A stretch of 64,000 bases of DNA, from positions 7,068,001 through 7,132,000 of the forward strand of contig NC_135260.1 in NCBI RefSeq assembly GCF_964204865.1. Reading direction: 5' to 3'. Shown one piece after another: positions 9,139 to 37,800 of the stretch (positions within the stretch are counted from its first letter, which is position 1; each line of letters opens with the position of its first letter). The DNA comes from Styela clava (Eukaryota; Chordata; Ascidiacea; Stolidobranchia; Styelidae). Both the position numbers and the translations under genes were made by a program. The notes under the pieces are model-generated. The model did no database searches. It was given only the letters and a program-made list of their open reading frames with translations, and was not told the origin of the DNA.

Positions 9139-9169
9139 GTTGGTTGTACCTTAGTTTCAATGTAGAAAT

Positions 9170-9400: not shown

Positions 9401-9454
9401 GCGACCCTGTGTACAATATCAAACAAACATGAGAACGCTACGTCATCGGCTCGG

Positions 9455-9640
9455 CGATGTGGCACATCGTGCTAAGCGTTAGGAATACGCTCGCTATAGG
9501 AATACGTTACGGCTTTCTCTATCATCAAGTCCATGCTTCCAAAAACAAATAATTGGCTAACAAATCCCAAACCCGACATGGACTGGTAATCGGACGAGAG
9601 GCCGTGGTTCATCACCATATGATTAAGTCGTCTTATTGAT
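9455..9640 (+). mobile_element. SINE copy at the unit 1/unit 2 junction
   Basis: Carries the family's GTGCTAAGCGTTAGG and ATGGACTGGTAATCGG segments. It holds the uninterrupted site GTGCTAAGCG at which the unit 2 sister copy received a 1.3-kb hAT element. The duplication boundary falls in its tail. Confidence 0.7.
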
Positions 9641-9737
9641 TATCGTTGCATTTTTCAATGTATGATTGAGAAAACAAAATTCATATCTCTATTCCAATAA
9701 AATCATTGTTGAAGTAACAAATCTTTTTCTTTTGCTT

Positions 9738-11391
9738 TAAAAATTTTCTCAGCTTCTTTCAAATTAGCATCAACATAAATGTGGATTTGCTTTTTAATTA
9801 CAATGCCCTCGTCTCTGGCAAATGTTCAACTTTAGAAAGTTTTTTTTCATGAAATTTTTGAATTTTTCTTGTTTCATCTTTGGATTCATTCATTCTGGAT
9901 TTCGCAGCTTTGACTAACGCTTTTTTGTGTTCTGCTGTGACCACAGGAATCGGCACTTTAAGTTTGGTACCCTTGACTTTTGGATTCGAGTTCATACCAC
10001 TGCATTCAATTGCTGATTGTGCAGAAGCAAGTGATTCGGGAAAATTCACAAAATCAACTTCTAATATCAATCAATCAATCATTTATTCGTCGTCACAAAA
10101 ACATCAAATGCACAAAAAATTGGTACAATAAATAAATATAATAATAATGATATTTGTGCGACAGGAGTCGCGAGGGACCATATTAGGTCTTCAAGCAGCG
10201 ACACCTAAAGCGCTGTTACTGATTCAGTGTAAAAAAATAACTACATTTGCTACAAACATTGACTATATCATTGAAAAAATTCGCAGCAAACGCAACTTTA
10301 CTAAAATCATATAATAGAGAAAAAAAAAGAAAAACAACTCAACTATAAATTTATAAAAAAGGCATATTTGAATAAATGTATATAAGTTACATAAAAGACA
10401 AACGACAAGCGAGGGGAAAATGGTTAGACCAAAGACAAAATTGTAAGTGATTAATTGAATAGAAGTTGGTAAGCTCTAATAAATCATAAAACGTTGATAT
10501 GTATATATATATATACAATACGCTCCACAGTAAGTGGGCATAAAATTTTGGCATTGGTGTAGAGGTTGCACCAAGGTTGGTAAAGTTAAAGTACCGGGTA
10601 CTTTAGAAATAGACTCCTTACACCTATAGTTCCTCCGGCTTTTTGGGCAGCCATGGCGACAGTCTACAAATGCGACTACTGGGCTATGGACAGAAGATGG
10701 CGAATCATACTGAATACTCCAATCAATGGCTGATGGAAGAGAGATAATAACTAATATATTTACTTTTTAGATATAATTTGAAACCGTAATAGCCTAAAGA
10801 TTTAATGGTACTTGGTAAGGCATTCCACAGTTTCACACCCGTGTATTTTATGGATTTCTGTGTCCTGCTTGATGAATATCTTGGGACATAATATGAACTT
10901 GACGAAGCTGATCTAGTAGAGTATGAATGGATATTACTCTGCTTGGGCGATTTCTTTGTGATAGTTGCAACCTCTCTCAGTTGAAATTCATCACCTTGCA
11001 GCAAAACTTTGATGTTGTCTAAGATTTTCATGTTGGCACCGATCCTAAACTGGTGCACAAAATCATGTTTCAACTTTTCGATAACTTCTAACATTTCATC
11101 ATGAACCAAATTAAGATCAATAAACTCTTCAGCATCTTCTGCACGAATAAGAACTTCTTGCTTTTTTGTTTTCTTAGGTTTACCTTTATCTTCATTAAAT
11201 ATCACAGATGTATGGAAATTTACAGCAGTATATGGTTGCCACATCCGCGTACACAACATAACATCATTTGACAAAGTATTTTTTGCTCTGACAATATGTA
11301 AAGCTGGCCTGAAACTTTTGTTAGGTAAATAGCCCAAACTCTTCGGCCTAATCAATCTCCTACAGCACGAAATTACAGCATTTGCAGACAT
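9738..11391 (-). pseudogene. MRRF copy 2, broken by a LINE insertion and a frameshift
   Basis: Reading down the minus strand, residues 1-150 match MRRF copy 1 almost perfectly (10,943-11,391, MSANAVISCCRRL to TKKSPK). The gene is then interrupted by 876 bp of LINE sequence. The second half resumes at about 10,066 and matches to LPET near 9,808. There one base is missing relative to copy 1 (GCCCTCGTC against GCCTATCGTC on the plus strand), which shifts the frame and destroys the C-terminal helix. Two target bases were lost at the insertion. An open frame of 222 codons (10,723-11,391) fuses the MRRF N-terminal half to LINE-encoded residues. The full RRF fold cannot be made, so I call this a pseudogene. 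Confidence 0.9.
10067..10942 (-). mobile_element. 5'-truncated non-LTR retrotransposon (LINE) insertion
   Basis: Inserted in MRRF copy 2 in the same orientation. The upstream end encodes the C-terminal tail typical of LINE ORF2 proteins: an N/Y-T-R segment, YYVPRYSS, then KYTGVKLWNALPSTIKSL (compare the family pattern G-x-K-x-WN-x-LP-x-x-I-K-S). About 650 bp of 3' UTR follows, ending in a short TGAT tandem repeat at 10,067-10,080 (minus strand). CR1/L2-like elements commonly end in such repeats. The rest of the element is missing, as expected from incomplete reverse transcription. Comparison with unit 1 shows a 2-bp target loss and no target duplication. Confidence 0.8.
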
Positions 11392-12971
11392 ATTTAGGTT
11401 TTATTCCGTGGCCCAAGAGTAGAACAAACGCACTTGGTGCAAACGTTAATTAATAGACCGCAAGTTCCTGCCTTTTATTGCAGGACTTAATTGCCCACTT
11501 TCCAGATGCCCAGCAATCGGCACATGGATCATAGGTGATTCCCCTATTTTCAGTTGTTCACGTGATCCACGGTCCACACCAATGACAAACAAGCTGTTTT
11601 TGAACACGAAATGGGCCCGTGGATCGTTCCTTAATTTTGCATTTTTTTTTCTTTTTTGGGGTTGTGTTTCTTTACTACTGGTTTCTTTTTTAGGTTAAAT
11701 CAAGTGAATTGCCATTGAATTTCAAATTGAATATCCCCAAAACAACTTGGTCTACTGGGCATACCGAATTGGCTTGCCTTGACGTATTTTTTTTTTTACA
11801 AATAACATATACAGGTCGACTTTTTGTTATTATTTTCTTGTTAGACTCTTACGGGTGCCACTGCTCGATAGAGGCCGTGGTCCGCCATATGGTTAAGCCG
11901 TCTTATCGATTTTCCTCTCCCCGGGATAAATGTGTAAATCCTATCCTATCCCATAACCAAATTTGGCTTCTCGTGGCCCCGCTCACCCTGAAATGTTTTT
12001 TAAATGTTCATTGCAATTTGTACAGCATATATATCAAGTGTGCTTTCAGTATGGTGAGAAAATAAACTACTGATTACTGAACTACTGGTGATCTCTGGAG
12101 CGATAATTCGCTTACATCAGAGTTATCTTACAATGATACTATGGTTACACGCACGCACGGACATCGGGACACGGCTATTAATTTCGCTCCAAACAAGGCC
12201 AAGTAGAAAATACAAACCGCCACTGAAATCTAAGCATATTGAAGCTCTTCACCCACTTACTTTGCTGTCAAACTTATCTAAGTTATACAAGCGAACCGCG
12301 CACTAATTAGCATAGTAGCTATTTAAAGCTACGCAAGTTGAAATATTGGCAGAAGCTTTGGAAATACAATCTACCAATAAATATTATCAATGTATTTGTG
12401 AGCAACAAAAACCCTATCGCCTGATGCTCCTATTGTAAGATCCCTAATAACGTTCCGGTACTAAAAAAAAAATTACAAGCTTGTTGCAGCAATATTGCTA
12501 TCACCAATGTAAATGTTGTTCAATATATGACTTTTGACCATCCTATACCGCGTTTTGTCAAAGGTAAAACAAGGCCTATTTCAATTTTCTTCTGAAAAAT
12601 AAGACTGTGGCTTATTTTGGAGTGGTATGTTTTATTTTCATTTATCAAAAACTAAATTACAAAGTAGAAAATTACGATATTTTCAAAAAAACAAAATATG
12701 AAACCCGATATTCATTTACTTATAAATAACCCTTTCTCTCTCACACGTTTAAGACTAATCAAGGGGAGAAGAGATTTCATACTATAGACTAGGTCAAAAA
12801 AAAATTGCGCAATCGTCTAGGTCGTATTTAAAGGGAAGGGCTTATCTTCAGGGAAACACAGTAGTTATATTCTCAAACATTGTTGGCTTAACATTGGGCC
12901 TGTTAACATACGATCTGGGCTCTTTGAAATTTGTAGCTTCGACTCGGGACATCAGCATCTTGATTTATTAC
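11392..12971. repeat. Second copies of the noncoding blocks, with SINE tail insert
   Basis: Matches 4,676-6,080 of unit 1. At 11,776-11,939 about 160 bp absent from unit 1 is present. It contains the SINE tail (GAGGCCGTGGTCCGCCATAT and CTCCCCGGGATAAATGTG). No gene is supported. Confidence 0.65.
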
Positions 12972-13392
12972 CAAGCTTGTCCATGGTAATGGGGATCCCT
13001 ATGGGATGGAACAACACACATTTGTATTTGCGTATTTGCCATGGAGATAATGTGAGACACGAAGCATCGTATGATTTTCGGGGAAATGATTGTAAAACAT
13101 TTTGTTATGGATTTCGTGTTCATATATTTGAGCATATCTCTCTTGTTAGTTATAAAGAGCAAATTACAGTATCTTCTACATTAACTACTTTGTGATAGGC
13201 ACATGTATAATAGTTATGGATCTAAAGTTAACAAAGTCAATATATTTTGTTGCTTGCGTGTCTCTTCGTGCACGTAGTCCGTACGTGTACGTAGTAGGAC
13301 TCTTTATTCAAATTTTATTCTAATGGGAATCCCATGAGATGGGGCAGGCATAAATTGCTATGGGATGGGACAGAAAAATATGGACAAGCCTG
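12972..13392. mobile_element. hAT-type element (421 bp), 8-bp TSD, with empty site in unit 1
   Basis: The ends CAAGCTTGTCCATG and TATGGACAAGCCTG are inverted repeats (12 of 14). The flanks TTTATTAC (12,964-12,971) and CTTATTAC (13,393-13,400) are the target duplication; unit 1 has a single CTTATTAC at the matching place. There is no transposase. An inner segment (GTATGATTTTCGG, ATATTTGAGCATA) resembles sequence near 23,232-23,300. Confidence 0.8.
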
Positions 13393-13400
13393 CTTATTAC

Positions 13401-14616
13401 TCGACTAGATAAGACTCTGCGTTTAGGGACTATTACCCAACACTAACAATGAGAACCAACATATTAAAAACAAAAAGTTGTTACGCCATGTCTATTTTAG
13501 GTGTCGAGTCGAGTATCACGCAGTTATTTCTTTGTCATTGTATTCCTTGTCACTGTATTTATGTTCAGCGTGACCTCTGCATCAAATATCAATCAACGCA
13601 CCCGCCCACACAAACATAATACACTTATGGAATGTTTGATAAACATCAATCATAATTATAAGTCGATTCGCAGACAACATTGGTGTCGAAGGTGTATTGT
13701 GCACCTATGTCATATAATACTCGATAAATCCACCCGTATCGATACTGGGGTTCCCCCATGGAAATACCTGATGCACAGAATAAATATGACAATATGACGT
13801 CAGAGAAGTAAGATAAAATGAAGCGTACTTGTCCTTTTGCTTCATTTTGGGTTCCTGGGCGGAGAATTCTTCACCTACATTACATCATTACATCAGACAA
13901 CGAATTAGCATAATAGCTGTTAAAAGCTATGCAAGTTAAGATATCGACAGAAATACAATTATGAGATACTTATAGATAATGATAACTATACCAATAAATC
14001 CTATAAATGTATTTGTACGAAGCGAAAACCATATCGCCTGATGTTCTTATTTTAAAATTTTTAGTAAGGTACTGAAAAACTAAAAATTACAAGCTTGTTG
14101 CAGCAATACTGCTTTCACCATTGTAAATGTTGTCAAGTTTATGCTTGAATTATACACCGGTAGTTATATTTCTCAAATAATGTTGGCTTGTTAACTTTTC
14201 AACATACGGCCAGCGATATTTGAAGTTTGTAACTTTGACTCGGGTCATCAGCGACTTGACTTATTACTTGATCACTTGAGTTGATCTGACTCGGCATTTA
14301 GGGACTGTTACCCATAAGCACTAACATCTTTAAAACGAAACTATTATTACGCCATGTTTATTTTATGTGCCCTTTGAACAAGTCGAGTAGGCTATATCAC
14401 GCAGTTATTTCTTTGTCATTGTATTTATTCAGCGTGACCTCTGCATCAAATATCAATCAACGCACCTTGCCCACACAAACATAATACACATATGTAATGT
14501 TTGATAAACATCAATCGTAATTATAAATCGATACTGCAATTTCAGTTTTCACTTGCGAAGAGCTGACGAAATCCTGAATAAGCAAAAACACAACCTTTTT
14601 ACCTTTTTGACTAATG
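13401..14616. repeat. Rearranged internal copies and inverted fragment
   Basis: Three pieces: 13,401-13,670 continues the block broken by the hAT element; 13,672-13,886 is the inverted copy of the 9,170-9,400 block; 13,896-14,610 repeats 5,405-6,430 again. So part of the unit exists in three copies in the window. Confidence 0.65.
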
Positions 14617-15928
14617 CAGTGTTTCCCAACATTTTTTGGTCGCGGACTATTTTCTCATCAGCGAAAACGTTTGCAGACTCAAGGTGCGTTTAATGCAACC
14701 GTATTCTGTGTGAAGAAGCAATAAAACCAAACACAACAGAATTTTAACGAATTTCAATAATGGCCTTTTCTGTCGCACAATATTCAATCCATGATAACGA
14801 CGAGAATTTAAAAGTCTTTTTATTTTAATTTAATTGTGTTCAGCATGGTAACTCGCGGTTGCGCCGACTTACGACAAGATGAACGACTTACGACAAGATT
14901 ACTTCTTTAAAATGTCGCGGCAATCTGCGAACATAATAATGTGAGAAAATATTGTCCGATTATATTTAGTTTTGATACATATTTTTTGCGATCTTGCGAA
15001 TTTGTTATCGCCGTTAGAAAAATCCCACTATCTGCTATAAAATTCCAGAACTTGATTTAGTACTTATTAGAATCTATTTAAAGTATATTAGTAAATCAAA
15101 AATACATATTCATCGCCTTGCTTTATTACTAATTTAATTCTGATCATTTCAATCTGCGGTTGTGCTGACGAAATAAAAGCAATACTACTTAGAAAATATC
15201 ATGGCAATTTGTGGACACAAAAATGCGTGGTGAAGTGCCCGATTATATTTTGTTTTGATTAGTATTTTTGTGAATTCAACAAATCTGAGCTGTTCGTACA
15301 ACACCTACGGCAGTACTGTACGTACCAATGTGGAGGCAGTAAAGCAAAAAATCCTAAGGGAAAATGCCCTGGTACGTATACCACGGTAGTACCCGGAATT
15401 TGGGGATTAGGAATGTCTAAAAAAGCTTTTTCAATCGATCGCGGACCATCATAAAACAAAACTTATGGTGTTCTCCGTTTTATATTTAGTATTTTGTATT
15501 GCCGCTTTTCAATTCGGAAAATTTGGGTTGCCACCATTGACACCTACCAGATACCACTTAGGTATCTATCGACGAGTGTGCAGACTCGTGTTTTCGTCGG
15601 GATTCCGCAAGTCAGTTGTGAAATCCCATCGTTTGATTAAGCGACACGCAAGTCACCCGTCGCGTCACCTGTTACCAAATTTTCGAATAGTAAATTGCTA
15701 TTCTAATAGCTGAATATTTGAATATATGCTCAGCCCTACTCAGTAACCAGTGATTATTGACTCGATTAATGTTATGTGAATAAACTTTCTTTTTTGTTTT
15801 ATGTAAATTCTAACGTAAATCGTAACTTGGCTGATAGAAAAGTTTCGCAAAAACGTTTGGGGCCCGCAGTCAATTTCTGGCTCGTTGTGGATTCATTTGA
15901 CACCGCGGACTCGGGTTGAGGAACACTG
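14617..15928. mobile_element. hAT-type element, unit 2 copy (1,312 bp)
   Basis: Sister of the element at 6,436-7,777, with the same terminal sequences (CAGTGTTTCCCAAC and GGAACACTG). Flanks GACTAATG (14,609-14,616) and GACTAACG (15,929-15,936) match at 7 of 8 bases. It was duplicated with the unit and did not insert independently. Confidence 0.75.
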
Positions 15929-16518
15929 GACTAACGTATTGCATTCTCGATTCTGAATCACATAATATAAATAAATTTTTGATAAAACCTGTTGTATTGT
16001 TGTACTCGATGGAAGCAGACTTTTTTCGTGTCATATATTCCTATTTGTATTACCCACACCGACATTTTATTCGCTTCCATTTTCATTATCTTACAAAAGG
16101 ATTTCCAACTCTGACAGACAAGTGCGACAAAACCCAAATACAATTTTGGTATTCACACTTCTTTTAGGTTTTGTTTTATTATTATTTTTACGAAATTAAT
16201 AGCACGCTTCAATATAGAAATAATAAAAGCAAAATCAAAGGTAATTATATTTAAAATAATAATATACGTATATATAATAAACAAAATGTAGGTGTGCACT
16301 GGGTTTTCTGGGATAAATTGCGTTTTTTTACAAAAATCAATCAATCAATGCTATTTGTTAATCGTAATGAAATTATTTGGTGCATGTATGCTTAGTGAAA
16401 ACAATTTCTCGAAGACTAATATTGAAATATATACATGTATATATGAATGAAAGTATGGTTGCAGGAAAGAGTGATGAACGTCTAGCTTTTTGCTTCTTAG
16501 TGATATTATACAAGTGTA

Positions 16519-16524
16519 TTTATT
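16519..16524 (-). terminator. Poly(A) signal AATAAA of ubiquitin-like gene 2
   Basis: TTTATT on the plus strand, about 86 nt past the stop codon of the gene upstream on the minus strand. Confidence 0.4.
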
Positions 16525-16609
16525 TTAATTTCGAGAATAATCGTCTGAAATAATATATTGCTCGAGAATTTTAAGTTTTAATACGAGGATACGGACATAA
16601 CGTTTGAAT

Positions 16610-17287
16610 TTATCCGCCACGATTTCGAATTACTAAGTTCACTGTTGAATTTGGCTTGATATCGTAGTCTTGTAGTAGTTTCCCTTTACACAACTCTTTT
16701 CCTTTATACATCAGTTTTATCTGAGTTGCCTCAAGTCCCTTTACCTCAGCGACTTTTACTTTGAATTCATGAACTTCGTCGGCAAGATGGACGTCAAACT
16801 CGTCTTTTTTTCCTCTCATATCCTCAACAAAAATTTGCACTTCCTCAAAAAACAAGTTCAAAGTTGACCCTTGTTCAACCCCGTTATGATTCAACCTTCC
16901 GTTGATTTCTTGTCCGTTGAACATGATAACTTGTTGATCAACGGCAAACCCTTTTCTTTTTTTAATTCTTACTTTTACGTCTTCGACCAGCTCGCTTTCT
17001 TCAACGTCAAGAGTGATTCTGTCATCTCCGTGCTCCACTGTTATTCGAATGAACTTTCGTTGCTTGACAACAACATTTACTGTATCCCCTGGTCGTATGC
17101 CACAATCTCTTACCCACACGCCGCTAATTTCCCGGTCTTTGAGATATAAGTAGATTTGATCAATAGTAAGCTCTTTGTTTCTCAGCTCACGGACTACGGT
17201 ATCTTTAAGATGAGCAACTGTCTCAGAATTTTCGTTAACGACGATTTCTTTCCTCCAACCATCTAACATTTGCACAAAGATTTTCAT
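16610..17287 (-). CDS. Triple ubiquitin-like-domain protein, copy 2 (ends at Gly-Gly)
   Basis: A 225-residue single-exon protein, paralogous to the one at 8,422-9,138. It has three ubiquitin-like domains (1-76, 77-149, 150-225) and ends NLVIRNRGG followed at once by a TAA stop, so the diglycine is the true C-terminus and no processing is needed. In copy 1 the same codon is TAC. By direct comparison the copies differ at 4 residues in domain 1, 12 in domain 2 and 20 in domain 3. Many of the domain 3 changes alter charge (for example R163E, K171E, K174E). The frame is fully open despite the divergence, which suggests it still functions. The target of any conjugation is unknown. Confidence 0.85.
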   Translation of the reverse strand: MKIFVQMLDGWRKEIVVNENSETVAHLKDTVVRELRNKELTIDQIYLYLKDREISGVWVRDCGIRPGDTVNVVVKQRKFIRITVEHGDDRITLDVEESELVEDVKVRIKKRKGFAVDQQVIMFNGQEINGRLNHNGVEQGSTLNLFFEEVQIFVEDMRGKKDEFDVHLADEVHEFKVKVAEVKGLEATQIKLMYKGKELCKGKLLQDYDIKPNSTVNLVIRNRGG

Positions 17288-17604
17288 GTTGGCTGTACCT
17301 TATTTTTAATGTAGAAATTTGTAATGTAGGTGTAGAACCTTCTGCCCAGTAATACAAAATGTAGCAAAACGATGAGTACGCCTGATTTTATTTTACTTTC
17401 CTAATGCCAATTGTCATGTTTGTTCTGTGCACCAGGTATTTCTATGGTGGAACCCCAGTATTGATACGGGTATATTTATCGAGTATTCTATGACACAGGT
17501 GCACAATATTGACCTTTGGCACCACTGTTGTCTGAGAGAGGTTTGGCACGCGACCCTGTGTACAATATCAAACCAACATGAGAACGCTACGTCTTCGGCT
17601 CGGC

Positions 17605-19090
17605 GATGTGGCACATCGTGCTAAGACAGTCCTGGGCAAGTTGCGGCCCGCGGGCCACATCCGGCCCGCGGCAACGTTTTATCCGGCCCGTGAGCAAGTT
17701 TCTAGATTTAAACACTTTTTTCATTTACATATAAAATATACTTTGATTGCGAACAAAAGAATTTTTAGGACAAAGAAAAAGTCGATAATACATTCGACTA
17801 AATTTCCCTTAATTAAATCGCCGATTGTTTTCATCATCTCGAGGTGTTATTTACGTCATGGATTATTCTCCTCGAATCACAAATTTTTCTGAACATATAT
17901 ATGTCTTGTATACGGAACTGTGAAACCATTAAAAAAATCGAGTTATTATATAATCATCGGCGACGAGATGCTAAAGATAAATAAAGAAGTGAATCTGCAA
18001 GCAACCTAAATCTAGATTTAGAGCGGCAATATAAAATGCTAAAAATTGAACAGAAACAAGTTATGATTCAAACGGCTCGCGACAGATTAAAAACGCTTTT
18101 GTGAAAATGGAAACTAAAAAATTTCTGTCAGATTTTTAATTGCGTAGCTTTCGTGGGCGCGATGTACCTTTTGGTCAATTGTATAACTACCGACGGGGCC
18201 TGATTTATAAGATAATTAATGTAAGGTAAACTCAATCGTTTTTCAAGTAATAATCTGGCACGTTACCTCACATTTTATTGTCCGCGGAATGCGGTGGTAT
18301 TTCAGAATTGTAAGGCTTATATTTTATCAAAGCAGCCGCGGGCTAGGTTGAAAACAACAAGACATTTCAATGTGCCCGTATCAATGCATTTTAAATATAT
18401 CCGTATCGCAAAAATAGATATAGTATATAAAGTATATCGCACAATTTTAAATCCACAGATAGCCGTGGTATATAGAGCAGACTTTTGAGCTCGCAACGCC
18501 TTCCAATGCATTAAAATTACCGCGAACCTTGTTCACCTTAAAAATGCTATGATGACAGCAAAGTTATATGAATCACGATGTTTGGCCACCAAAGGCATGG
18601 TCCTAGTTCTGCATTGTTACTCACTTTCCACCATTAATGACAGGATTCGGCATTGTTATGCAAGCGTTCCGTTTCTCTGATCCAATGTATTGTCTCGAAA
18701 TCGCCAGATTTATGTTTTAAACTAATTTTATTAAATGCGCTTTGAATAAAATTTCTAACAAAGTACAATAGATATACTACTTATTTATATACTTACTTAT
18801 ATATAGTACGTATTTAAATGTGTAATATAATACAATAAAAACGCGCAACTGACTCTACTTAGTCCGGCCCGCCACTGCATTTTGAATATTCAATGTGGCC
18901 CGATACCAAAAATAATTGCCCAGCCAGGTGCTAAGCGTTAGGAATACGCTCGCTATAGGAATACGTTATGGCTTCCACCATCATCAAGTCTATGCTTCCG
19001 AAAACAAACAACTGGCTAACAAATCCCATACCCGACATGGACTGGTAATCGGACGAGAGGCCGTGGTTCATCACCTTAAGTCGTCTAGAA
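17605..19090 (+). mobile_element. SINE copy split by a 1.3-kb hAT insertion
   Basis: The 5' part ends at 17,625 (CATCGTGCTAAG) and the body resumes at 18,928 (GTGCTAAGCGTTAGG) through ATGGACTGGTAATCGG. It is the sister of the intact SINE at 9,455-9,640. Confidence 0.7.
17626..18927. mobile_element. Non-autonomous hAT element (1,302 bp), perfect 8-bp TSD
   Basis: Flanked by GTGCTAAG at 17,618-17,625 and 18,928-18,935. The inner edges are inverted (CCTGGGCAA and TTGCCCAG), with GC-rich subterminal motifs on both sides (CGGCCCGCGGGCC; GGCCCGCC). The unit 1 SINE shows the empty site with a single GTGCTAAG. The interior has no intact transposase. Confidence 0.85.
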
Positions 19091-19695: not shown

Positions 19696-22600
19696 ATGGG
19701 AATGCTTATCATATACTTAACTTTCTATGCCCATACAGTGTTGAGTGCGGCAGGTAAATTTATATTAGTTTTACGTATTTCAACACTATTGTATATTTTC
19801 AATATATTTTTCAAGGTATATTTCATGTGTTCGCTATATATTGGAAGTTTATTTGAGAATAGATAATATATATTATGATAACCGCATGCAGAGAGATGCA
19901 GACTAATAATATTAGACTTGAAGTAGTATTTGCGACGAAAAATGTATTGTGAACACCTTGAAATAATATAGCAAATTAACATAAGTTTAGTACAACTTAA
20001 CTAACTGAAAATAAATTGCGGAAAAAAATAAAACAGAAAAGCGAATGTTTTCGATAATGCCAAGATTTCCATTAGCAAATCGCAACGCAAATCTAACCGA
20101 TAATTATTAAACAATATCACGCTTTTCTTTCACAAATTTCAGCATCAGAAAGCTGCTGGATATCAGCAGTATGCGATGGAACCCCAACATGGATGAAACT
20201 TCCTTCGTTTGCTTCTTGTGTAAGTTACAATGCTTGTTCATATCTGCGATCATCTTTGTGTTATGTTTATGTATTACGTATTTTTGTAATCATTAAAATT
20301 GAAAAATCTATACTAATGGCTAGAGTCAATTTATGAATACAGATGATCTTGAATTTCTTTGGTCAGTGTTCATGTCAAAATAATGAACTAATATGTTATT
20401 TGTATTTATTTTTGTATGGGCGTGATCCTAGTTATAGACAAATACTTTCTATATACTTATAGTGTCGGATTCTTGCGATGCATTTGCGTTATACAAATAC
20501 GATATGTAAATATTTGAGTTCAGCCGGAGTGCAAACATTGCCTATCACTAATTTATTTTTCTTTGTTTCGAATATACTCGCTGTGTTACTCACGATACAA
20601 CTCATGAAAAAAAGGTCCTAAATCCTAATTATATCCCTACATTTCATCTTAATTATTTCTATTGTTTCAAGTGAAATACTCAAAATAACCTTTCCCTTTT
20701 CAATATATGCCCTCAAGTTGACAACACTTCTAATATTTTAGAAAGACTCATCGAATTATAACCTCAAAGAAAAAGTGCAGGAACTCGGTAGTAAGTAACA
20801 GTTGATCTACATCTCACTAAAATCGAGCGATATATACTCACGCGGCCATATTGGATAATGATATTCATATTGAATAAAAAGAGTCGTTCAATGTTATACT
20901 TAATTTTCGACGTCTTGGAGAACTACGGATCCAGAGGGTGGCGTATATTATGGTATTGACTCTTATTTGGTGTAGTTTTTAAAGCACTATCCGAAAATTG
21001 TTTCATGTCGGTGAAAATGCGAAATTGCGAATTTGAAATGTTTTTTATACGTTGATTGCTATACGACACATATTTTAACAGGCGAAGTAGCTACATTGAG
21101 GACTCAAATTCTTGACTTCGAAAATCGATTGAAAGATTTTATGGCAAACCCCTCAACAACGGACAATATGAGGACCTCGACCACGACAGGATTAAAAACA
21201 ACTCCTACCACCACAGCGACCCCAACTCAAGGTTTGAGAAACCGTATATGAGGCTGGCAAACATGATATCATCAGACGAAATGATTTTTATTCATTTGTT
21301 GGACAAGATGAATCAATTTTTATATTTTTGCAAGTGTTGGTCCATGGAAATGGAATATAAATTAAAATGTTTTACCCGAAATTAACCACCTCGATATTTG
21401 CGGGCCAATTTCGGCGCCTTTTCTTGCGAGTATTTTATAATGAATTCACAAACGGGACTTAAGATTACTCAACGGAACTTTTCTTAAACTTCATTAAACT
21501 GGATAAAATAAATGTGAATGTCCCTCTTATGATAATAATCGAATATTATTAACTAATATTATTGGAATTAAATTAATTAGGCATTTTACAAACGACCGGC
21601 GTTTACAATAATGTTGACATATAGTACTTGAATCGTGAATATATATATTCCAAATTTTGATATTTGGGAATTCTAAGCATGAAGTGAACTAGTAGAATTG
21701 TTTGCTCAAAAATAAATAAATTAATTCGTTCCGGTGCTTAAATGGTCCTAGGAAAATTCGCGGCAGGAAATTTTGCCGCGTAGGAAAAACTCGCCGCAGG
21801 AAATTTCGCCGCGTAGGAAAAATCGACTAATGAAAAATCGCCGCAGGAGCATTTTGCTGTAAACCAAGTATTTGTGATAAAAACAGTTTGGTTTTTCAAA
21901 TACTTTTTTATTTAATAAAAATTCATTATATAAGAGCATAGCTTAGCCCTAACTCTATAAATCAAACAGTTTTTATCGCAAATACTTGTTTTACAGCAAA
22001 ATCCTCTTGTGGCGATTTTTACGCGCGAATTTTCTTATGCGTCGAAATATCCTGTGGCGAGATTTTCCACAGTGAAATTTCCTGCGGCCAATTTTTCGGA
22101 CACGGCTTGAATTACTCGCTTAATGAGCCAGTTTGTTTTATTAATTCAATCTCATTTGTGTTTTAGGATATGACTGTTTTTATAACGATCGCCAGCACTG
22201 CTATGAACTGTTTACAAATGGTTCTAAAAGAACTCAGAGTGAATACAAAAAAGAATGCACAAAACGGCCAGGAGGGGATTTTGCTGATTACGAAAAAATC
22301 AAAAATATTCCAGATTTCGGAAAAATGTTATCTGATAGAAGAGATACTTCTCTACCTAATGCCTTGCTGATGAAATCTTCGATAACCAATGTTAGTCTGC
22401 TCAAATATATATTTTTATTTCTAATTAATGCAAAGAAGTAGCTTGAGTAGCTTTTGAAAATGAAACTGAACTGACTGAAACAAAAATCACAGTGCTACAG
22501 TCTAGCTTTGACACTTTATATGTCTAATGACTATAATATGTCTATGTAATGTAATAACAAACTGTAATGTAATAACATTGCCTTTTTAAAACTATTGCTG

Positions 22601-22871: not shown

Positions 22872-23322
22872 CAAGAAAAGACTTTCGACTGATTACTTTA
22901 TCTTTAAACAGACAATTTTATTCGTCTTTATTGGACACGTTAGTGGACATAACGATCGTTTTGCATTATTTTTGGAAAACTTAAAAAGTCGCTTTTCTCT
23001 TTAAATACTAGACGAATTTCTTCAAAATTTTCAGCGGTTAAAAAAAGAATTTTCTTCTAGAAGGCTATTTATTACTTTTATTTATTTCAAATATTTCTGT
23101 TAGCTTTGTGGGGTTCGCTTTTTTGTTTGCTATGACGTCACCGACCGTCAGCTGATTTCGTGCTCGGCGTTTGCCGATGAATCTAGTGCTTAGCAATAGT
23201 AGGAAGTTTATTATGCCAAACGGTGGACTGTGGTATGATTTTCGGAAATTGGCAAAATGCTCTACGTGTCCAAATATTTGAGCATAGCTTTCTTGTTTTG
23301 TCAAAGTGATGGGTGATCGGGT
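22872..23322. repeat. Repeat-like stretch downstream of the lectin-like gene
   Basis: Contains TTATTGGACACGTTAG near 22,928 and the roughly inverted CTACGTGTCCAAATATTTG near 23,260. Related fragments (TTTTCAG.GGTT..AGA...T.TT.TAGAAGGC) appear near 55,630-55,810. Probably a mobile-element remnant; no gene is supported. Confidence 0.4.
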
Positions 23323-24133
23323 GATCATACCAAGTGTAGAAAAATGTTTATTAAAATATCTACAATGTAAATGTATAAGCGAAAAAAATTATTTTGCAGA
23401 AAATAGCATAATAAAGATAAAAAAAAATAGAATTCATTGTTATTTTCCATATATCCTTCCTTTGCCTTGACTACACGCCTCGATCTGTTTGGAACTTGAC
23501 TGCACGAGGCACGTGTGGTTTCTTTTGACATTTTGTCCCAACAAGTCATTATTCTATGCTTTAGAGCAGTTGTTCTCAAATTAAGGTCACTAGTGGTAGA
23601 CGAGCAGCTTTGAATTATTGCAACAATTAACTTTTGTATTCGCTAAACAGCGTTTATAGCGCTACCAATCCTTGTCTTTAGAGATCGCCCTCATCCGTTA
23701 CTGTATACCAAAAACGGAACAGGCATGTTTTCGCCGTTTTGCGTTTTACGTCACAATGTGGCGGCATTAAACCGCTATCAACGACGTTTAGCGAATGGTT
23801 AGTTGTTGCAATAATTCAAAGCTGCTTCCGCACCACTTGAAAAACTTCCGTGTATCACTAGTGGTGGGCGCAACTCAGATTGAAAACAACTGCTCTAAGG
23901 CGTAGAATGATGACTTGTTAGAACAAAATTTCAGAAGAAACCATACCCCGTGCAGTCAAGTTTCAATCAGATCGAGGCGTGTAGTGAAGGCAAATGGAAT
24001 ATATATATATCATAAAATAACAATGAATTCTATTATTTATCTTTATAGGGTTATTTTCTGCCAAATCCTTTTTTCTCTCTTACATTCATATTTTAGATAT
24101 TTTAATAAACATTTGTCTACACTTGTTCTGATC
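23323..24133. repeat. 811-bp palindrome (arms about 340-360 bp)
   Basis: Starts GATCATACCAAGTGTAG and ends CTACACTTGTTCTGATC. The arms (about 23,323-23,661 and 23,772-24,133) pair through blocks such as AACAAGTCATTATTCTATGC with GCGTAGAATGATGACTTGTT. Each arm carries hAT-like ends (CAGTTGTTCTCAAA; TTGAAAACAACTG). The loop is about 110 bp. Open frames inside are by-products of the repeat. Confidence 0.8.
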
Positions 24134-27100
24134 ATCCTGTATATAATAGTATCTGTCCAGCAATCTGTGAATTAAATCTAGATCAAGTTGTTTTTATTAC
24201 AAAAATTAATATTAGATGTGAGCTATGCAAATTGGTCATAAATATTACTAGAGCTATACACGACTACAAGTTTTCAAATACTAACGCCCGGCAGAACATC
24301 TCACCTCTTCAAATGTGTATATACGCCATTGCAACACTTTTATTTTTGGCCGAACAATTTTAATGGCTAGTATTCAGATTTTCTGTAGTTTTATGTAACT
24401 TTATTACAATAAAAGTTGTACTGAGAAGCTTGCCTCAATCTATGATTTCTAGACTGTGATATAGGATAGGGTATATATTATGGTCATTCAAAATGCACCA
24501 TATGTGCAGGTAAAAAATTAAAGATCGCGATAGGTCTCGACAAAATTATTCGAGCTATTTAGCAGTCGACAATCCTAGTGTATATTACATACCATAGAAT
24601 TATGAATAGAATATATTTAATTGAAATAATCTTATTATTGCAAACAATTGTGAAAGCGGTCTACTCTGACAACAGCATATGCGGAGCTTCCTCATTGCTA
24701 ATATGAGACAATGATTTATTAAGCAGTCAATGCAGAAATTCAATTAATTGACTCTTGAATCAAATTCAAATGCGTTCCAATTCATTCTATTGTGTCTCCT
24801 GGATTTACTATCAAATTCAACTATTCATATTACCATAGCTGAAGACAATATAGTATTGAAATTGAGGATTGAATTACCATATTGTCAGTTTATATACACC
24901 GTTGAATCTTCCGATGATCTATCTATTTAATTGGGTAATTTTTTTGCTAGTTACTCTAAACTACAGAATGGTTGGCTCGTGTTGACTGCTAATTTATCAG
25001 TATAGGCAATACAATGGAGAAGCTATTTTATCATAAAATATTGCAGATTATAATTCATTCAGAAAAATTTTATATTTATAACGACAAACTATTATCAAAA
25101 TCAACTCAATCCAAGCAACAGTTCAAGCTGAACGAGCATAGACGAAATGCATTACACTAACTGTTACTTAAATTAGAGAGCAACAGAAATATAATTAAAA
25201 GGTTAATTACAGCACATACTCTAGTATTTTATTGATGAATAGCACCTAACATGTTTAACAGTTTTTATACTTATTACTTAACCACGATATACGCAGATAA
25301 TGATGTTGAGTTAATAAGCTCTAGCTAAAACGATATGAACATATGTACTCATGGTTAGAGCTTTCTAGGAACACTGCTACCTTATTTTTGTGATACGTTT
25401 TTTACGTAAAACCCTGCAGTGCTTCTGGAATACTGAAATGTCGACGAAAACTTGAAACGCATGGCTTATTTGCAGCCTTGCTACAGGACACATAAGTGAA
25501 TGACATCTCGCTACTTGCATAACACCACGTAGGCTTGCATTTCACATCTTTCCTTTTGATAAAATTTAATTTTTTACTCTTTTACCTTGTGAATTAGTAC
25601 AAATTATTATCAAGGAAAAAATGATTCTTAAAAAAAATTCACAAACGGGAAAAATTGTTCTATTATTTTGAGACCGTATAAACGGCCAGAAAACTCAAAT
25701 TTGTACTGGCCTTGGAAAAGCTGCGTAGTAATACCAGTCTGATCGAAACTGTGATATAATTTGTATTTTCTACGGACAGAATTATTTAGAATCAATTACT
25801 CATTATAATTTATTTATTTCGATTTATTTGCAAATATTATTCACATGGTTATGGTTATGTAGAATTACATTCTGCAATCGCAATGGCACAAAAGAACCCT
25901 GATGTGTGGACGCCATAAAACATGCTAACGACAAGAACAATATCCATCGTGGATTGGGTCTGAGTATAAAATTAGAAAAGCACAATTATTTGTTAGTGTC
26001 ATCGTTTTTGTATTACAATTACTATTTCATTAAATTTGGTTATTTAGTTCATTTCAACTTTTATTATTTTTCTGTTCTTTAAATGAATACTTTACTAGGA
26101 TAGGTCATATTTTGTTGCACAAAAGGTTTCAAGCGTATTGAGCCTGATTACAGCGATTTATTTATATATATATGGATAGACAAATATAAATGGCATTTAC
26201 AACATATCATAGGCGTAGAAACGCTCAGAGGTTGCTAATACATAAGAATTGTTTAGAAGCCATATGGTATCAATTCAATGCAACAATTGTAATACAACTC
26301 TTAGATATCCGGCGCCCGTATTTGCAATCTGTTGTTTGAAACAGTACTTTTAAGTTTATCATATTTATTTGTCTGTAACCTATTCTATTGTATATATATA
26401 TATATTAGTGGTTTATAATTATCAGAATATAAGGTACGGTATATTATAGGCAGCTTTAGTTGTTAAAAATACTGAAAGCAATAGCTCTGTATTAGTCGAG
26501 GATTTGGTAAAATGAATTCTCTGGTATTTCATTTTAGTCGTTGATGGGTCTTTTGATCCCGTCTAAAAACAAGTTAATTAGAATTTCAGTTTTAAAGCAT
26601 AAAACCGACAAATCAAGCTTGCTCATATCGGCAATTGTGCAACATTGGATAACGTGCGTACTCTCTATGTTGGCGTTGTTATTGCGATGCTTAACAGGGT
26701 TGACTTCCCTTTCCCAATGACTTAATAAAATATGGAAAACATCCGGCAATTTCTAAATTTCTATTGTTCCTAGCCTGACGCATTCATCAGCCATACTTCC
26801 TAATGACAACGACACGTGTGATATTCCTTAAGAGCTCTTCATCAAATTTACTTTAAACGGCTGCGTGGCGCACGGTGAATAACGTTGAGCTTCGTTTGGA
26901 TATTGCAGTTGTATGCGGAAAGTCAACTGCGATTATTCTTTATTTCGGCGTTATTCATACGTATACGATTGCTCACAATCAGGATTAGACAGTAAATAAG
27001 AGTGAGTGAGGGGTATGGGTATACAATAATTTTTATACCTGTACTGTACTGATAAAATGACAGTAACGATTTCCATGAAGAGCGTGACGCCGTAAAAAAA

Positions 27101-27437: not shown

Positions 27438-28519
27438 ATGAATTCAAAAGTTCTTCTATTGACAATGATGTTGATGACATTCTGCGTTGCGGACGGATGG
27501 CTTTTCGGTCATCATCATCATTATCATCATCATCACTATTATTATGGATGTGATATGGAGTAAGTAGAACCGTGTTTACAAACTTGTTTACATTTCAATT
27601 TTTATTTTGTTTTTTCATACTTCGCTTATTATTATTTTGTGGCAAAATTGACGCTCGACATGACTAATATTCATCCGCTTCAGATTTGACGGTTGTGGTG
27701 TACGGTTACGTACTATACTGGTAACGAACTTCATACATTTGACAACATTTTGAATAGAAGGTTAATCATTCCATGCTATATATGTATTCCTACTTACTCT
27801 ACTTTGTTATCATATATATTACGCGTTAAAAAATTATTATTTTCTTAACAGTGATAACGAACAAAATGCAGAAAGGCGAATTGATTCAGGTAAAACGCTT
27901 TGTATTACTACTTTATATTTGCGTAATATGATATATATGAACTGGGAGATACTCGAACTTTTAAGGGCCTTGTATACAAATGCCTTACTATGTTATCAAC
28001 ATTGCAAATGGTATGCATCCCTGTGAAAATAGTATGTGAACCAAGATGGCGGACACCGAAACGTAGAATGTGTACCCTGTTAGGCCATAATTGCAGGTAC
28101 AAATACTACGGGAGTCATTTGGCTGGACTCCGAACTTGTAATAGAACTAAAATAAGAAAAATTGGAATAAAATTAGGGGGCAACCCTAACCTGGTACACA
28201 TACTACGTTTCGGTGTCCGTCATCTTGGTTCATGTGTTTTGGGAGTACCTTTTTTTGTAGTTGCAGACACTTGCAGTAAGATTATGTTTGTTCACTGAAC
28301 GGGAAATCGATTTTCAGATTGCCCAAGTATTTGTGTTACTTTTAATAATGCAAGTAAATGTTAATTTTGAAACATCAATAGACAACAATACATATAAAAA
28401 AAAATGTCTAAATTGTGATCATATCCCACATTTTTGAATGCTATTTTTCAATTTCAGCTGAAAACGAAGATGCACTTTTCCATCCAGTAGAAGACGTTGA
28501 TATGAAGATGAACCAGTGA
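27438..28519 (+). CDS. Secreted His/Tyr-rich peptide precursor (73 aa)
   Basis: Three exons: 27,438-27,559; 27,852-27,889; 28,458-28,519, with consensus splice sites and matching phases (2, then 1). Residues 1-20 are a clear signal peptide (MNSKVLLLTMMLMTFCVADG). Residues 21-37 read WLFGHHHHYHHHHYYYG: eight His and four Tyr in 13 residues between two glycines. A single Cys (38) follows. The rest is acidic (DDNEQNAE, ENEDALFHPVEDVD) with a dibasic RR at 49-50 that could be a cleavage site. Signal peptide, basic or aromatic core and acidic tail is the layout of many invertebrate defence-peptide precursors. The core could also bind Zn or Cu, or have its Tyr residues oxidised to DOPA. I recognise no named family; function is inference. 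Confidence 0.75.
27941..28248 (-). mobile_element. Inverted-repeat element in intron 2 of the peptide gene
   Basis: GAACCAAGATGGCGGACACC (28,038 on) pairs with GGTGTCCGTCATCTTGGTTC (about 28,216 on). Its interior on the minus strand (AATTTTATTCCAATTTTTC, TTTTAGTTCTATTAC) matches 62,180-62,220 and 63,395-63,435, so this is one copy of a dispersed family. Outer limits are approximate. Confidence 0.55.
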
Positions 28520-31251: not shown

Positions 31252-31255
31252 GACA

Positions 31256-33726
31256 TATAGCAACTAACCCCCAAATGTACCCCATTTCATGTTGAAATCA
31301 TCATGACAAAGTTAATTTTTCCCAAAATTCGAACAAAGACTTTCGTAGGAATCAAATTACACCAGTTTTAGGAACATTACATGTTCCACCCAGTCATTAT
31401 CAAATTAAAATTAATATTCTCAAGACCTTTGGCACTGATTGAAATATTTATCTCTAAGTTCACATCCGTACGATGTACCTAATTACCCTTGTTGAGATAA
31501 TAGGAATTTCTGTTTATAACGTGAATCACGAGCTCACGTTTACAGCATTTAATAAGATTTATGATGGACGTATAAATACGACTCCGATATCTTTCGATAG
31601 GGAGATGGAAGACGATGTAAACCATTCTAAGCTAGTCTGGATAAATGTTATAAGATTTATATTCTGTGTGTTGTGGAAATTTACGAATAAAAACATATAG
31701 AGATTTTTAACGCATCTTCATTTACGTGGGCGTTGAAGCTGAAGGGTGAACGGGTAACTTGCAAGTCGGAGACAATCTACGAAATAGCAATATATGGTAA
31801 CATCACATTCATTTACCAAATATATATGCCATAAATGGTGACAAAACCGACTTGAATTAACCTTCTGAAACGGACCAGATCAACGGGCAACAATCAGGAC
31901 AGGCAACAATTTGACGGAATCAACCAAAAAGCTGACCAAGCGAAAGCTTTCAACAATTGCCGAGAAACCGTCTCTACAAAACGTGCAAAAATCAAATTCG
32001 ACCAACTTACGAACGTCGGGGAGATTCAAATTGCCTGGAACAACGATTGAAGTAGCAAATTGTTGACAAGCCGATATAATCAGAAACATTATGAAAAGAC
32101 AATAATCTCAATTGAAAACAGTTGAACTATGGTAACGGACTCTGGAAACGTTAAAATCATGAATATGGACTGTATTGAACATCGATCGAAATGAACTTTT
32201 TTAGAAAATGATATATGTTCGAGATGAAAAACCTAATCAAAAACAAACTGTTGAAAACAATGAACTATATGGACTGTTTTACGGTAAATCACGCGCTCTA
32301 TTCCGAACAATAGAGAAATTGTCGCGCTTACCTAATGGATATACAGATCAGGAGCATGTCATCCTACAATTTGTTTCATGATTTGCAGGTTTTTCTTCTC
32401 ATTGAGACAGACATTTTTCATTCTTCCACTAATACTAAGGTAAAGTACTTTTTTTTCTTCTTATATATACATGGCGTTTCATTCGGCTTTCAATTTTTAT
32501 AAATTAATTAATGGTAAAACTTTGAATATTCTAATTTCAAATACCTTTAAAGAGATTTATATTATTGAATATTTGTGGTTAGCATTCCTTTTCGATTGAA
32601 TAGATTTCGTTATTATTAAAATGCTTTCTAAAAGTAGATTCGAGCGAGTCATACTTTTAATTATTTACAAAGCCGTCATATAGAACGGTGAAATAATAAG
32701 CTCGTTAAACAAAAATTGTATCAAAAGCGTTATTTTTTCAAAAAAGCCCTGAGATGGCATAAACTTAAAAATGCGTTTTTTCTTCCCGACATGGGACAAG
32801 CATATATTGACCAACTAGGTCTACAAAATCGTAACAATGCGATTAAGCGAGTATAAGTATTTTAACTTAGCGAAATACATTAAATTGAAAATATGTTTTA
32901 ACCGACCAAACCAAAATTTTTAAAATAAAAATACGCCATCCTTCTGTAATTCTACTTTACAACCTTTACTCTTTCTATAAACTCTTCTTTATTTCAATGT
33001 CGTGTCTCATTATAGATCATATACATTTAAATATTTTTTTTGACCTATATCATTAATTTTAGCATTGTGTATTGTATTTTTCTATATATTTTCAATTTAT
33101 TAGAGTTGCCAAATCTTTAAACTTCCAGTTAGTAAGATGGGGAGATAATATAGCAACTAACCCCCAAATGTACCCCATTTCATGTTGAAATCATCATGAC
33201 AAAGTTAATTTTTCCCAAAATTCGAACAAAGACTTTCGTAGGAATCAAATTACACCAGTTTTAGGAACATTACATGTTCCACCCAGTCATTATCAAATTA
33301 AAATTAATATTCTCAAGACCTTTGGCACTGATTGAAATATTTATCTCTAAGTTCACATCCGTACGATGTACCTAATTACCCTTGTTGAGATAATAGGAAT
33401 TTCTGTTTATAACGTGAATCACGAGCTCACGTTTACAGCATTTAATAAGATTTATGATGGACGTATAAATACGACTCCGATATCTTTCGATAGGGAGATG
33501 GAAGACGATGTAAACCATTCTAAGCTAGTCTGGATAAATGTTATAAGATTTATATTCTGTGTGTTGTGGAAATTTACGAATAAAAACATATAGAGATTTT
33601 TAACGCATCTTCATTTACGTGGGCGTTGAAGCTGAAGGGTGAACGGATAACTTGCAAGTCGGAGACAATCTACGAAATAGCAATATATGGTAACATCACA
33701 TCCATTTACAAATAATACATGCTATA
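31256..33726. mobile_element. LTR-like element with no recognisable coding interior
   Basis: Two direct repeats of 578 bp (31,256-31,833 and 33,149-33,726) are nearly identical and separated by 1.3 kb. Each begins TATAGC and the second ends GCTATA (the first GCCATA). The outer flanks are both GACA (31,252-31,255 and 33,727-33,730), a possible 4-bp target duplication. TGG at 31,836 could begin a primer site, and a purine-rich AAGATGGGGAGA lies just before the second repeat. No gag or pol is visible. The termini are not the usual TG...CA, so a plain duplication remains possible. Confidence 0.5.
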
Positions 33727-34865: not shown

Positions 34866-37800
34866 ATGGAGATGAGACGATGGATATTTCTCCTGATCGT
34901 AATATTCTGTTTTGCCATCGTGTCTGCGGTGAGTTTTATTTTGTTTTTCCGAAATATTGCATCAGCGAATTTCTAACGTGACAAGGCGGGAGTGGCTCAT
35001 TTGAAATGGAGCACATAAGAATTACACAACTATATAGATTAAATGGAGAGCATAAGATAGTAAATCTTTAGATCAAGTTTGTCACAATAAATCTGAAATA
35101 GTGAAACGCCGTTCCGGCAAACAATCACACCGCAATCTGCGCATTTTTGCAGTTGTTAATTAGATTCAGTTTACGTATTTTGATTAATAAATATAATGTA
35201 TACAGATCTGTAGCCTTAAGGTTATTGTTTCAGAATGCCCCATGTTTGCAAGTTACTATTCAATCTTTACATTCTAACGTAATCGCTAGATTAAAGCAAT
35301 AAATTTTATGAATACATTGTTAGGGCGTTTCTTTCCAAAATAGTCAGTTATTTTGATATGTCTCATTCTCAGAAACGAAATAGTGGGGATCATGAATCCG
35401 ACAGAGAGCGTCACGTCAGAGCTCATCTAGAAGAGGCAAGTAATTTTTATTCAAATAAATTCATGACATGAGTCGAACGATTATACCATCCAATACGATT
35501 CATCTAGTTATTAACTGAATGAATTTGAGCATAATAATATTGGTATATATCACTTCAAACAAATATTATAAAATATTCCCTCATATATGACCAACCTTTT
35601 TACAAATCTTCAATTTGATACACTACTGTTAGGCGTGTTTGAAGGCCAATCCGGATCTCGCCCAATGGAACAAAATACAAAAACAAAGTTAAAGTGTTTG
35701 ATCAAGAAATTGAGACAAGATGATATCGATCATAGAAATAAAAACAGATCGACAATTTATGTTAAATATTGAATTTCCTTGACAGAAAAACAATCGATCA
35801 TCGAAAATTAAAGAAGCCGATGACCGAAGAGAAAATCGAGTCAATAGGGACGGAACACCGTTATTGAAAAGTATGAAAGGAAATACTATTTACCTTGTTA
35901 CTTAGCGTAACCCGGCCACGGCATGCCACTGTTGGTATGTGGCTTTGAGCTTGGATACACATACTTGAAGTTGTTAACAATCTCCTAGTTGCTCAGAATT
36001 TAACATTTAGAAATTCGAAACATATAAGTTAGTTTACGAAATATTTGATCATCAGTACCGTACCGCTAATTTATGTAATGCTCATAGATGGATGAATTCC
36101 TAGAATAGAACGACAAAGAACAAGCTTTCCATCCGTCAAAGTTCATTGTAAGGCTGTCATAACCATGTGCCATATAAACATAATCTTGGGTACTCTTGCA
36201 TGGTGAAGTCATTTCGACGCAAATCAAAGAATATGCTGTTGGGCCATTTCATTATACCCAGAATATTGGAGTTTAATTTCAGTCTGTAATACAGTTGTTG
36301 AAATCTAATCTGTAAATGCGTCGCCAACCATATTCTGGTAATGAATATGTTTATATGGTATTTTGGAGGTATGTGTAATATGTAATTAAACATATGAATA
36401 GTGTTAAATACTCCCTTCATGTATCATAGACTGATGAAACTGGTTAACAGTACCGTTAGAAGTAAAATTGCATTTATACTGTTTACAAAATACTGATAAA
36501 AACTTCGATTCCTCGCGCGCGATCACGAACTATATTATCCAACATATTTGAACTAAGCGTAACCTCCTAATTCCTTTCATGCTATTCGCCGACTACAAAA
36601 CTTTGGTATGTTGGTATGAAAATGGTGTTTATTGAATTAAAATTTTTCATATTTTAAGCCTCATTGAAGCATTGCAAAATTTCTGATAAAAGTTAATTTT
36701 AGTACGTCTCGCTTGCAATAAACTTACCTTCTGAACATTAGATTTTCCCTTCTTAATGCAATCTTATTTATGTTACATTACAATATTCATAAACAGTTTA
36801 ACAATATATCAATCAATCCCGAAACCTGTTTCTAATATTATAAGTTCCCATTATTGGTCTATTTGGTTTTTATTTTCAACATTGCATCATTGTGTATTTT
36901 CAGACCCGTGTGCCAAAGTAAGATGCAAAAAAGGTAAAGAGTGTTCATTGGACAAAAACAACTCTCCAAAATGTGTTTGTATTCAAGAATGTTCGACTAT
37001 GGTTACGATTGACGACAAGTGAGTTAAAAATCCAATTGTTTAGCAAGAAATTATTGAGCAGAGTAATGGCTATATCGAGGCAACTACGATATAAAATCAC
37101 AATAATCCTTTAGAATAGAAATTTGATGATAAGTTGAAAACGAAAGAATATAAAGGAGTACTTCGATTTAACGTTTCCTGAGAGCAAAATGTCGATTAAA
37201 TGCAAATTTTAGTGTTTCATAAACTGTGCTTACTTGGACTTGTGAAAACCGTCAAATCAAAACTATATTAGTATTCAGAAATTTGGCTTGTTCAAATCAA
37301 TAGGGTAAACCATTTGCAATCTTTTTGATAGGAATTCTTTTCTACCAAACAAAAATATAAATATTTTTTTTATATTTAGGGTCTGTGGAACCGACAACAA
37401 AACATATGAAAGTGAATGTGTTTTACGTCGTTTGAAATGCCTTGGAAGTAATGATAGAAATATTAAGAAGACTTTAAGAAAGTTAAAAGTCAATTATCTG
37501 GGAGAATGTAAAAGTAAGTCAATTTCTGTACATATCAGTGAACGCAAACTTATTTATCTATTTTATAACCATCGATGAGCAAATAATTTTAAGATTAACG
37601 CGTTTACTCTTCTCACAACTGACAGTGAGCTTTTACGATTTCTTAGCTTCTTGTAGGCCTGTGCCAAGACATGACCTTACAAAATAATTGAGATTGGGAA
37701 TTCTTGATATTGTGATGAAGTTGAAGACTTGACGCACTCTCGAATTGTGAAAATCTTGGTGGTCGATACATTGGACATATTAGTTATTAATGCGTATGGT

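Follow-up and report, generated by a model that had tools for sequence, protein, structure and literature searches.

A 64,000-nucleotide stretch of Styela clava DNA (the window) carries a three-exon gene, very probably a real one, that encodes a small precursor with an unusual His/Tyr core. We give about even weight to the reading that this single-copy gene encodes a prepropeptide of the type used in tunicate haemocyte defence, with a core switched by pH and/or metal. In short, the gene is an orphan with an unusual core in a precursor of known type.

Gene model and chance controls

The coordinates of the gene model proved exact, with an ATG at position 27438 and a TGA stop ending at position 28519 of the + strand. 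Three exons of 122, 38 and 62 nt, separated by GT-AG introns, join into a 222-nt in-frame CDS for a 73-residue precursor, MNSKVLLLTMMLMTFCVADGWLFGHHHHYHHHHYYYGCDMDDNEQNAERRIDSAENEDALFHPVEDVDMKMNQ, and the gene has no frame-breaking lesion. An earlier note on this DNA had described three exons with correct splice phases, and that description holds. The precursor parts follow each other in the order MNSKVLLLTMMLMTFCVA-DGWLFGHHHHYHHHHYYYGC-DMDDNEQNAERRIDSAENEDALFHPVEDVDMKMNQ, which reads as a signal peptide, then (DG)WLFG-HHHHYHHHHYYY-G-C, and lastly an acidic tail containing a single RR. Outside the signal peptide there is a single Cys, C38, and the single dibasic site, R49-R50, sits within the acidic tail rather than where the core ends. 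The signal peptide was called from its hydrophobic N-terminus and, by eye, from the (-3,-1) rule, that is, by simple rules. With that call, the signal peptide, His/Tyr core, lone Cys and acidic tail with a dibasic site listed in the earlier note can all be read in the precursor. The features are as follows.

27438..27559, + strand: exon 1, encoding the signal peptide, the His/Tyr core and G-C-D-M; it ends in phase 2, with an in-frame splice and a GTAAGT donor
27438..27491, + strand: predicted signal peptide, covering residues 1-18 with cleavage at VA/DGW (extending to 27497 with cleavage at ADG/W)
27492..27551, + strand: candidate mature peptide DGWLFGHHHHYHHHHYYYGC (or WLFG...YYY-amide), from the sequence, with cleavage placed by analogy with styelins and clavanins (PMC7387483)
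27510..27545, + strand: His/Tyr block, 12 codons CAT/CAC/TAT, from run and codon counts, the repeat listing and the genome-wide pattern
27560..27851, + strand: intron 1, GT-AG, phase 2, donor GGA/GTAAGT
27852..27889, + strand: exon 2, 38 nt, acidic tail with the RR site; ends in phase 1
27890..28457, + strand: intron 2, GT-AG, phase 1, donor CAG/GTAAAA
28037..28232, no strand assigned: MITE-like element in intron 2, outside the coding gene, with 48-nt inverted ends and arms 92% complementary
28458..28519, + strand: exon 3, end of the tail and stop, backed by the tail codon score of residues 37-73

Chance is a poor explanation of the three-exon gene. Its His/Tyr run of 12 residues, eight His and four Tyr, exceeds every other in the window's six frames (the next longest is 6), and the longest such run over 100 dinucleotide shuffles was 5. 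A degenerate HHHHYHHHH pattern matched once in the 376.6-Mb genome, at the candidate gene, and the reversed-pattern control matched nowhere. The tail has 11 D+E, an excess of 8 over K+R. The window has 17,668 overlapping stop-free stretches of 33 codons; only four of them reached 11 or more D+E together with an excess over K+R of 7 or more, and these four belong to two sites, a ribosome recycling factor ORF recognized by Pfam and its duplicate. Codon use was scored as log-odds after training on 1,087 codons from window genes plus the CesA/GH6 exons; the score of residues 37-73 was matched by 2 of 2,914 background stretches (fraction 0.00069). Ten signal-peptide-like ATGs in the window (nine on the + strand, one on the - strand) gave 46 three-exon models, one of which, the candidate gene, had an acidic tail; the splice thresholds were chosen with the gene's own sites in view, and donor 1 lies exactly at the cut. 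No three-exon model with an acidic tail arose in 100 shuffles (one strand each), which offer fewer trials, with means of 3.7 signal-like ATGs and 6.9 models each versus 46 models in the window.

We consider it very unlikely that the locus is non-functional, either as a chance chain of splice sites around a CAT/TAT microsatellite or as a decayed gene. The His/Tyr block is indeed an imperfect trinucleotide repeat, listed by a tandem-repeat finder at 27509-27539 with a period of 15, and its codons are disfavoured by the coding-use score, at -0.70 bits per codon. Moreover, canonical polyadenylation signals are lacking within 735 nt of the stop: over the 1.2 kb checked, ATTAAA/AATAAA first appears at 29254, 735 nt past it. 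The shuffles that failed to reproduce the model, the uniqueness of the pattern in the genome, the codon use and acidity of the tail, and the intact frame argue against this explanation. As the block scores as a tandem repeat, its length may be unstable, and it could be a drifting, length-variable microsatellite. The acidic tail is the better gene evidence of the two.

Other features of the window were recorded alongside the gene. The MITE-like element in intron 2 has 4,480 candidate places in the genome, of which 40 were scored, and the other scored copies are 86-90% identical; a literature text search found no report of it. Segmental duplications occupy 3795-17625, where 5974-9476 resembles 14158-17625 (91%), 4227-5040 resembles 10943-11775 (96%) and 5040-6087 resembles 11939-12971 (93%). 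Within them lie two ubiquitin-like tandem genes, each a single ORF (8422-9150 and 16610-17299, - strand), as well as the ribosome recycling factor ORF and a split second copy of it. Long self-inverted matches at 23319-24137 (70%) and 21753-22095 (73%) are possibly remnants of palindromic transposons. Downstream of the candidate gene lie a 579-bp direct duplication (31255-31833 and 33148-33726, 98.8% identical), exons of a follistatin/Kazal-domain protein at 36735-37578, and exons of a dimethylarginine dimethylaminohydrolase at 60668-60967.

Searches for relatives and comparison with resident clavanins and styelins

In Pfam, no family scored above its cut-off for the precursor, and the matches were sub-threshold DUFs. 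The Clavanin model (PF05452) left the precursor unmatched with E up to 10 and recognized the control clavanin C precursor at E 7.3e-52. Likewise, the Styelin model (PF17562) left it unmatched with E up to 10, and two styelin controls scored E 2.5e-35 and 7e-41. A second Styelin search used a query lacking the signal and most of the block; HMMER filters discard most weak matches. None of the four core or signal strings looked for had a match in the openly licensed literature, in agreement with the earlier note, whose author knew of no family with this sequence. The titles and abstract openings listed from the same literature, covering S. clava antimicrobial peptides and genome, precursors and proteomics, ribosomal tunichrome precursors, and His-rich ascidian haemocyte peptides, held no report of the gene.

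Genome searches with the whole precursor, its N-terminal part or its tail found no paralogue among the few candidates that they score. They also overlook short exons (the gene's own exon 2 gave no row), so a diverged paralogue could be missed. One weak candidate, at C2:15653669 (E 0.158), was read as chance since its open frame has no signal peptide. The proposal of a new peptide family keeps its backing from Pfam; among the candidates scored, the genome supplied only the gene itself. Among PDB sequences, 294 distinct ones matched with E up to 10, and the best 60 of the 294 look, from their names and the matched region, like poly-His tags of expression constructs. Prokaryote and virus collections held 353 and 171 stretches that fit the peptide pattern and no confirmed relative, a result expected of an animal gene and of little weight.

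The genome also has a cellulose synthase ORF adjoining a GH6 domain, an arrangement that is a tunicate hallmark. It has two clavanin genes, each encoding a complete 80-residue precursor in three exons, with an exon 2 of 20 nt and introns in phases 2 and 1. It encodes VFHLLGKIIHHVGNFVYGFSHVF, which is letter for letter the S. clava clavanin C published in PMC8719109. Taken with the styelin genes and the cellulose synthase-GH6 locus, this makes the genome very probably that of S. clava, or of a very close relative. The clavanin gene L014 (G000:C1:10573222-10576290) codes for LFKLLGRIIHHVGNFVHGFSHVF, which differs from all of clavanins A-D given in PMC8719109, the set compared. Styelin exons were located on C10 by the Pfam model, with nine rows, eight of them above the cut-off, and 2 of 14 control genomes matched below the cut-off; a genome query by a styelin peptide with X at modified residues found no match. 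In the styelin genes, exon 1 (113 nt, phase 2) encodes the signal and a GW.. start, exon 2 ends G-D-M in phase 0, and exon 3 is acidic (TDEEFQ...), to which the copy L026 adds a short candidate exon 4, LQSRQ. L026 (G000:C10:16312200-16314100) encodes a styelin-like precursor whose middle is rich in Tyr (GWLRKAAKSVGKFYYKHKYYIKAAWKIGRHALG), unlike the N-termini of styelins A and B in PMC8719109. The copy L027 was excluded from alignments because it gave no complete exon 1-2 model under the pattern used. The candidate gene, on C14, lies apart from the clavanin loci on C1 and the styelin loci on C10.

All three kinds of gene have a phase-2 first intron, after 47 nt in clavanin, 113 nt in styelin and 122 nt in the candidate gene. 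The phase pair 2 and 1 is common to the clavanin genes and the candidate gene, a two-phase agreement that is expected by chance about once in nine. Like the clavanins of the same genome, the candidate has a small secreted precursor with a His-rich core, an acidic tail and three exons. The clavanin core, however, is in exon 3 behind a pro-segment, whereas that of the candidate is in exon 1 directly after the signal, and the 23-residue Phe/His core followed by G-D-D is absent from the candidate precursor. In alignments of clavanin with the precursor, similarity was not above chance under shuffles.

The styelins come closer in layout. Their core also directly follows the signal, starts GW(F/L) and precedes a phase-2 first intron, and a D-M lies near an intron between core and acidic tail. 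Styelins have a Tyr/His/Lys-rich middle and contain DOPA (PMC3039461). They differ from the candidate in having four coding exons (in the L026 model) and a cationic Lys/Arg core; the candidate core is without Lys or Arg and, by eye, without an amphipathic helix, unlike both clavanins and styelins. In addition, the styelin intron after D-M is in phase 0, whereas the candidate has D-M plus two bases, in phase 2.

A divergent styelin, of the same lineage but with an expanded His/Tyr repeat in place of the middle part of its mature peptide, would account for the GW(L)FG start, the D-M near the intron ahead of the acidic tail and the phase-2 first intron, and the L026 styelin itself contains FYYKHKYY. 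Plain shuffles reached the whole-precursor alignment score in 6 of 5,000 cases against L026 and in 74 of 5,000 against the L028 styelin, in favour of this explanation. Segment-wise shuffles were far less favourable: the L026 score was reached in 234 of 10,000 when its own segments were shuffled and in 416 of 10,000 with those of the candidate, and the L028 score in 1,262 and 1,252 of 10,000, respectively. A profile built from the two styelins (L026 and L028) scored the precursor at -0.6 bits (E 0.098 versus one sequence), below inclusion, and the Pfam Styelin model matched both controls and not the precursor. With the discordant phase at D-M also against it, we regard a divergent styelin as unlikely. 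Under segment-wise shuffles, neither clavanin nor styelin shows significant homology to the precursor, the best result being 234 of 10,000. The likenesses in exons and motifs suggest a styelin-like ancestry that sequence statistics do not establish. Because the shuffle statistics are non-significant and neither a Pfam match nor, in searches of limited power, a paralogue was found, we would file the gene, as judged from its sequence, under the precursor type and under neither the clavanin nor the styelin family.

Other tunicate haemocyte peptides

The precursor has the layout of tunicate haemocyte prepropeptides given in section 5 of PMC7387483, namely a signal, a core and an anionic C-terminal propiece in 50-100 residues. 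The acidic propiece that the earlier note had likened to those of defence peptides is one that the gene shares with tunicate haemocyte defence precursors. The same section reports an anionic helix for 17 of 22 Ciona candidates. Ci-MAM and other Ciona LCAMP precursors resemble the candidate in their signal, basic/aromatic core and acidic tail, and the Ci-MAM-D segment starts DGW (PMC7387483), as does the candidate core. They differ in that several have Arg blocks where the candidate has His. Alignments with the Ciona precursors were unconvincing, the best score being reached by 28 of 1,000 shuffles among the 16 tested of 22 tabulated; left out of this set were five rows without an anionic segment, one near-duplicate and the second anionic line of KH.S655.3. 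With DG added, scores were reached by 62, 79 and 82 of 2,000 shuffles for three precursors and by 607 of 2,000 for KH.C1.640. The published Ciona screen discarded Cys-containing sequences (PMC7387483) and would therefore have missed a peptide of the candidate's type.

Halocidin and dicynthaurin of Halocynthia are disulfide-dimer peptides (PMC2866484, PMC8719109), and the two sources disagree on the species from which halocidin comes. Like the candidate, they have one Cys per chain, and the halocidin 18-mer begins W-L and contains H-H (PMC8719109), two pairs that also occur in the candidate core. Their Cys, however, is inside the peptide, whereas that of the candidate is at the end of the core, and their alignments with it were not significant (score reached by 212 and 1,548 of 2,000 shuffles, respectively).

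Plicatamide (8 residues), the halocyamines (4 residues) and the tunichromes (about 3 residues) are far shorter than the candidate core and bear dehydro or bromo groups, and the core appears to spell none of them. These compounds resemble the candidate in that they are tunicate haemocyte peptides with His and/or Tyr-derived (DOPA) residues (PMC3039461, PMC8719109). Plicatamide, from another Styela species, is FFHLHFH-dehydrodopamine (PMC3039461); its sequence is absent from the core, and a pattern coding for FFHLHFHY has no match in the S. clava genome. The link to halocyamines, plicatamide and tunichromes drawn in the earlier note is therefore compositional only.

The gene could, by this likeness, be the ribosomal precursor of a DOPA/His peptide that cross-links or holds metal in tunic hardening or wound sealing and does not itself kill, a role that we find distinctly unlikely. 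Several points would suit it: the block is made up entirely of His and Tyr, tunicate haemocytes contain His/DOPA peptides in plicatamide and halocyamine (PMC3039461, PMC10817596, PMC8719109), and little is said to be known of how such dehydro compounds are made (PMC3039461). Against it speaks the lack of an FFHLHFHY-coding string in the genome and, apparently, of any known compound within the core. That the peptide signals, as a neuropeptide, hormone or haemocyte messenger, and does not kill is most improbable. A signal peptide, small size and one dibasic site are consistent with signalling, and the Ciona haemocyte peptide CiEMa seems to act as a signal and left the tested antimicrobial genes uninduced (PMC10888236). 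On the other hand, the sole dibasic site of the candidate is inside the tail, and a homopolymer-like His/Tyr core is, in our judgement, unlike a receptor ligand.

Computed charge and a proposed mode of action

Net charges were computed with generic pKa values. The 20-residue core has -0.4 at pH 7.4 and +6.3 at pH 5.5, clavanin C has +1.2 and +4.6, and the tail has -9.1 and -7.7. The swing between the two pH values is 6.7 units for the core versus 3.4 for clavanin C, so the core would be the stronger pH switch. Clavanin is more potent at mildly acidic pH (PMC2866484). The activity at low pH that had been proposed for the peptide fits the computed change in core charge. However, botryllin, a styelin-like Botryllus peptide, is weaker at lower pH (PMC9966394), and acid activation is thus not general in the group.

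A defence peptide switched by pH and/or metal, the reading to which we give about half of our belief, would work as follows. The signal peptide would route the precursor to secretory granules, where the acidic tail (about -8 to -9) may hold the core soluble and inactive in storage. A protease would then cut before D39, or at G37 with amidation. Ascidian precursors of a similar sort, those of styelins and clavanins, may be cut before acidic residues and have no basic motifs at the boundary, according to PMC7387483, and section 4 of PMC10888236 infers cleavage between Gly and Asp plus amidation for CiEMa of Ciona. In CiEMa, Gly directly precedes Asp, whereas in the candidate Gly is followed by Cys and then Asp.

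In acidic granules, phagosomes or inflamed tissue, the eight His would be protonated, and the core, now at about +6, would act on microbes at the membrane or inside the cell. The His cluster could also take up Zn(II) or Cu(II). Clavanins bind Zn and Cu through their imidazoles, and Zn(II) increases the activity of clavanin C (PMC8424629); by analogy, eight clustered His make metal binding likely in the core. The ATCUN position (His at residue 3) is absent from it. Metal enhancement is not general among clavanins, for which an intracellular rather than membrane-disrupting action has been suggested (PMC8424629). Two cores may be joined through the lone C-terminal Cys of each, in the manner of halocidin and dicynthaurin. 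Some of the core Tyr may be oxidised to DOPA, which is conceivable because styelins contain DOPA (PMC3039461).

A more specific possibility is that the gene encodes the ribosomal precursor of a His/DOPA metallopeptide, in which YYY and the remaining Y would become DOPA and the eight His would hold Zn or Cu, giving an antimicrobial or cross-linker triggered by pH and oxidation. We put this forward as a speculative and improbable reading. If true, the gene would give the chemistry of plicatamide, halocyamines and tunichromes a genetically encoded route. To our knowledge, such His/DOPA chemistry has so far come only from these small tunicate products.

S. clava ranks among the classic sources of antimicrobial peptides, and yet this gene is unmatched by the Clavanin and Styelin Pfam models. 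If expressed, its product would have an extreme His/Tyr core without Lys or Arg, that is, a clean switch for pH and metal. The gene also offers a direct test of a ribosomal origin for His/DOPA chemistry in tunicate blood cells.
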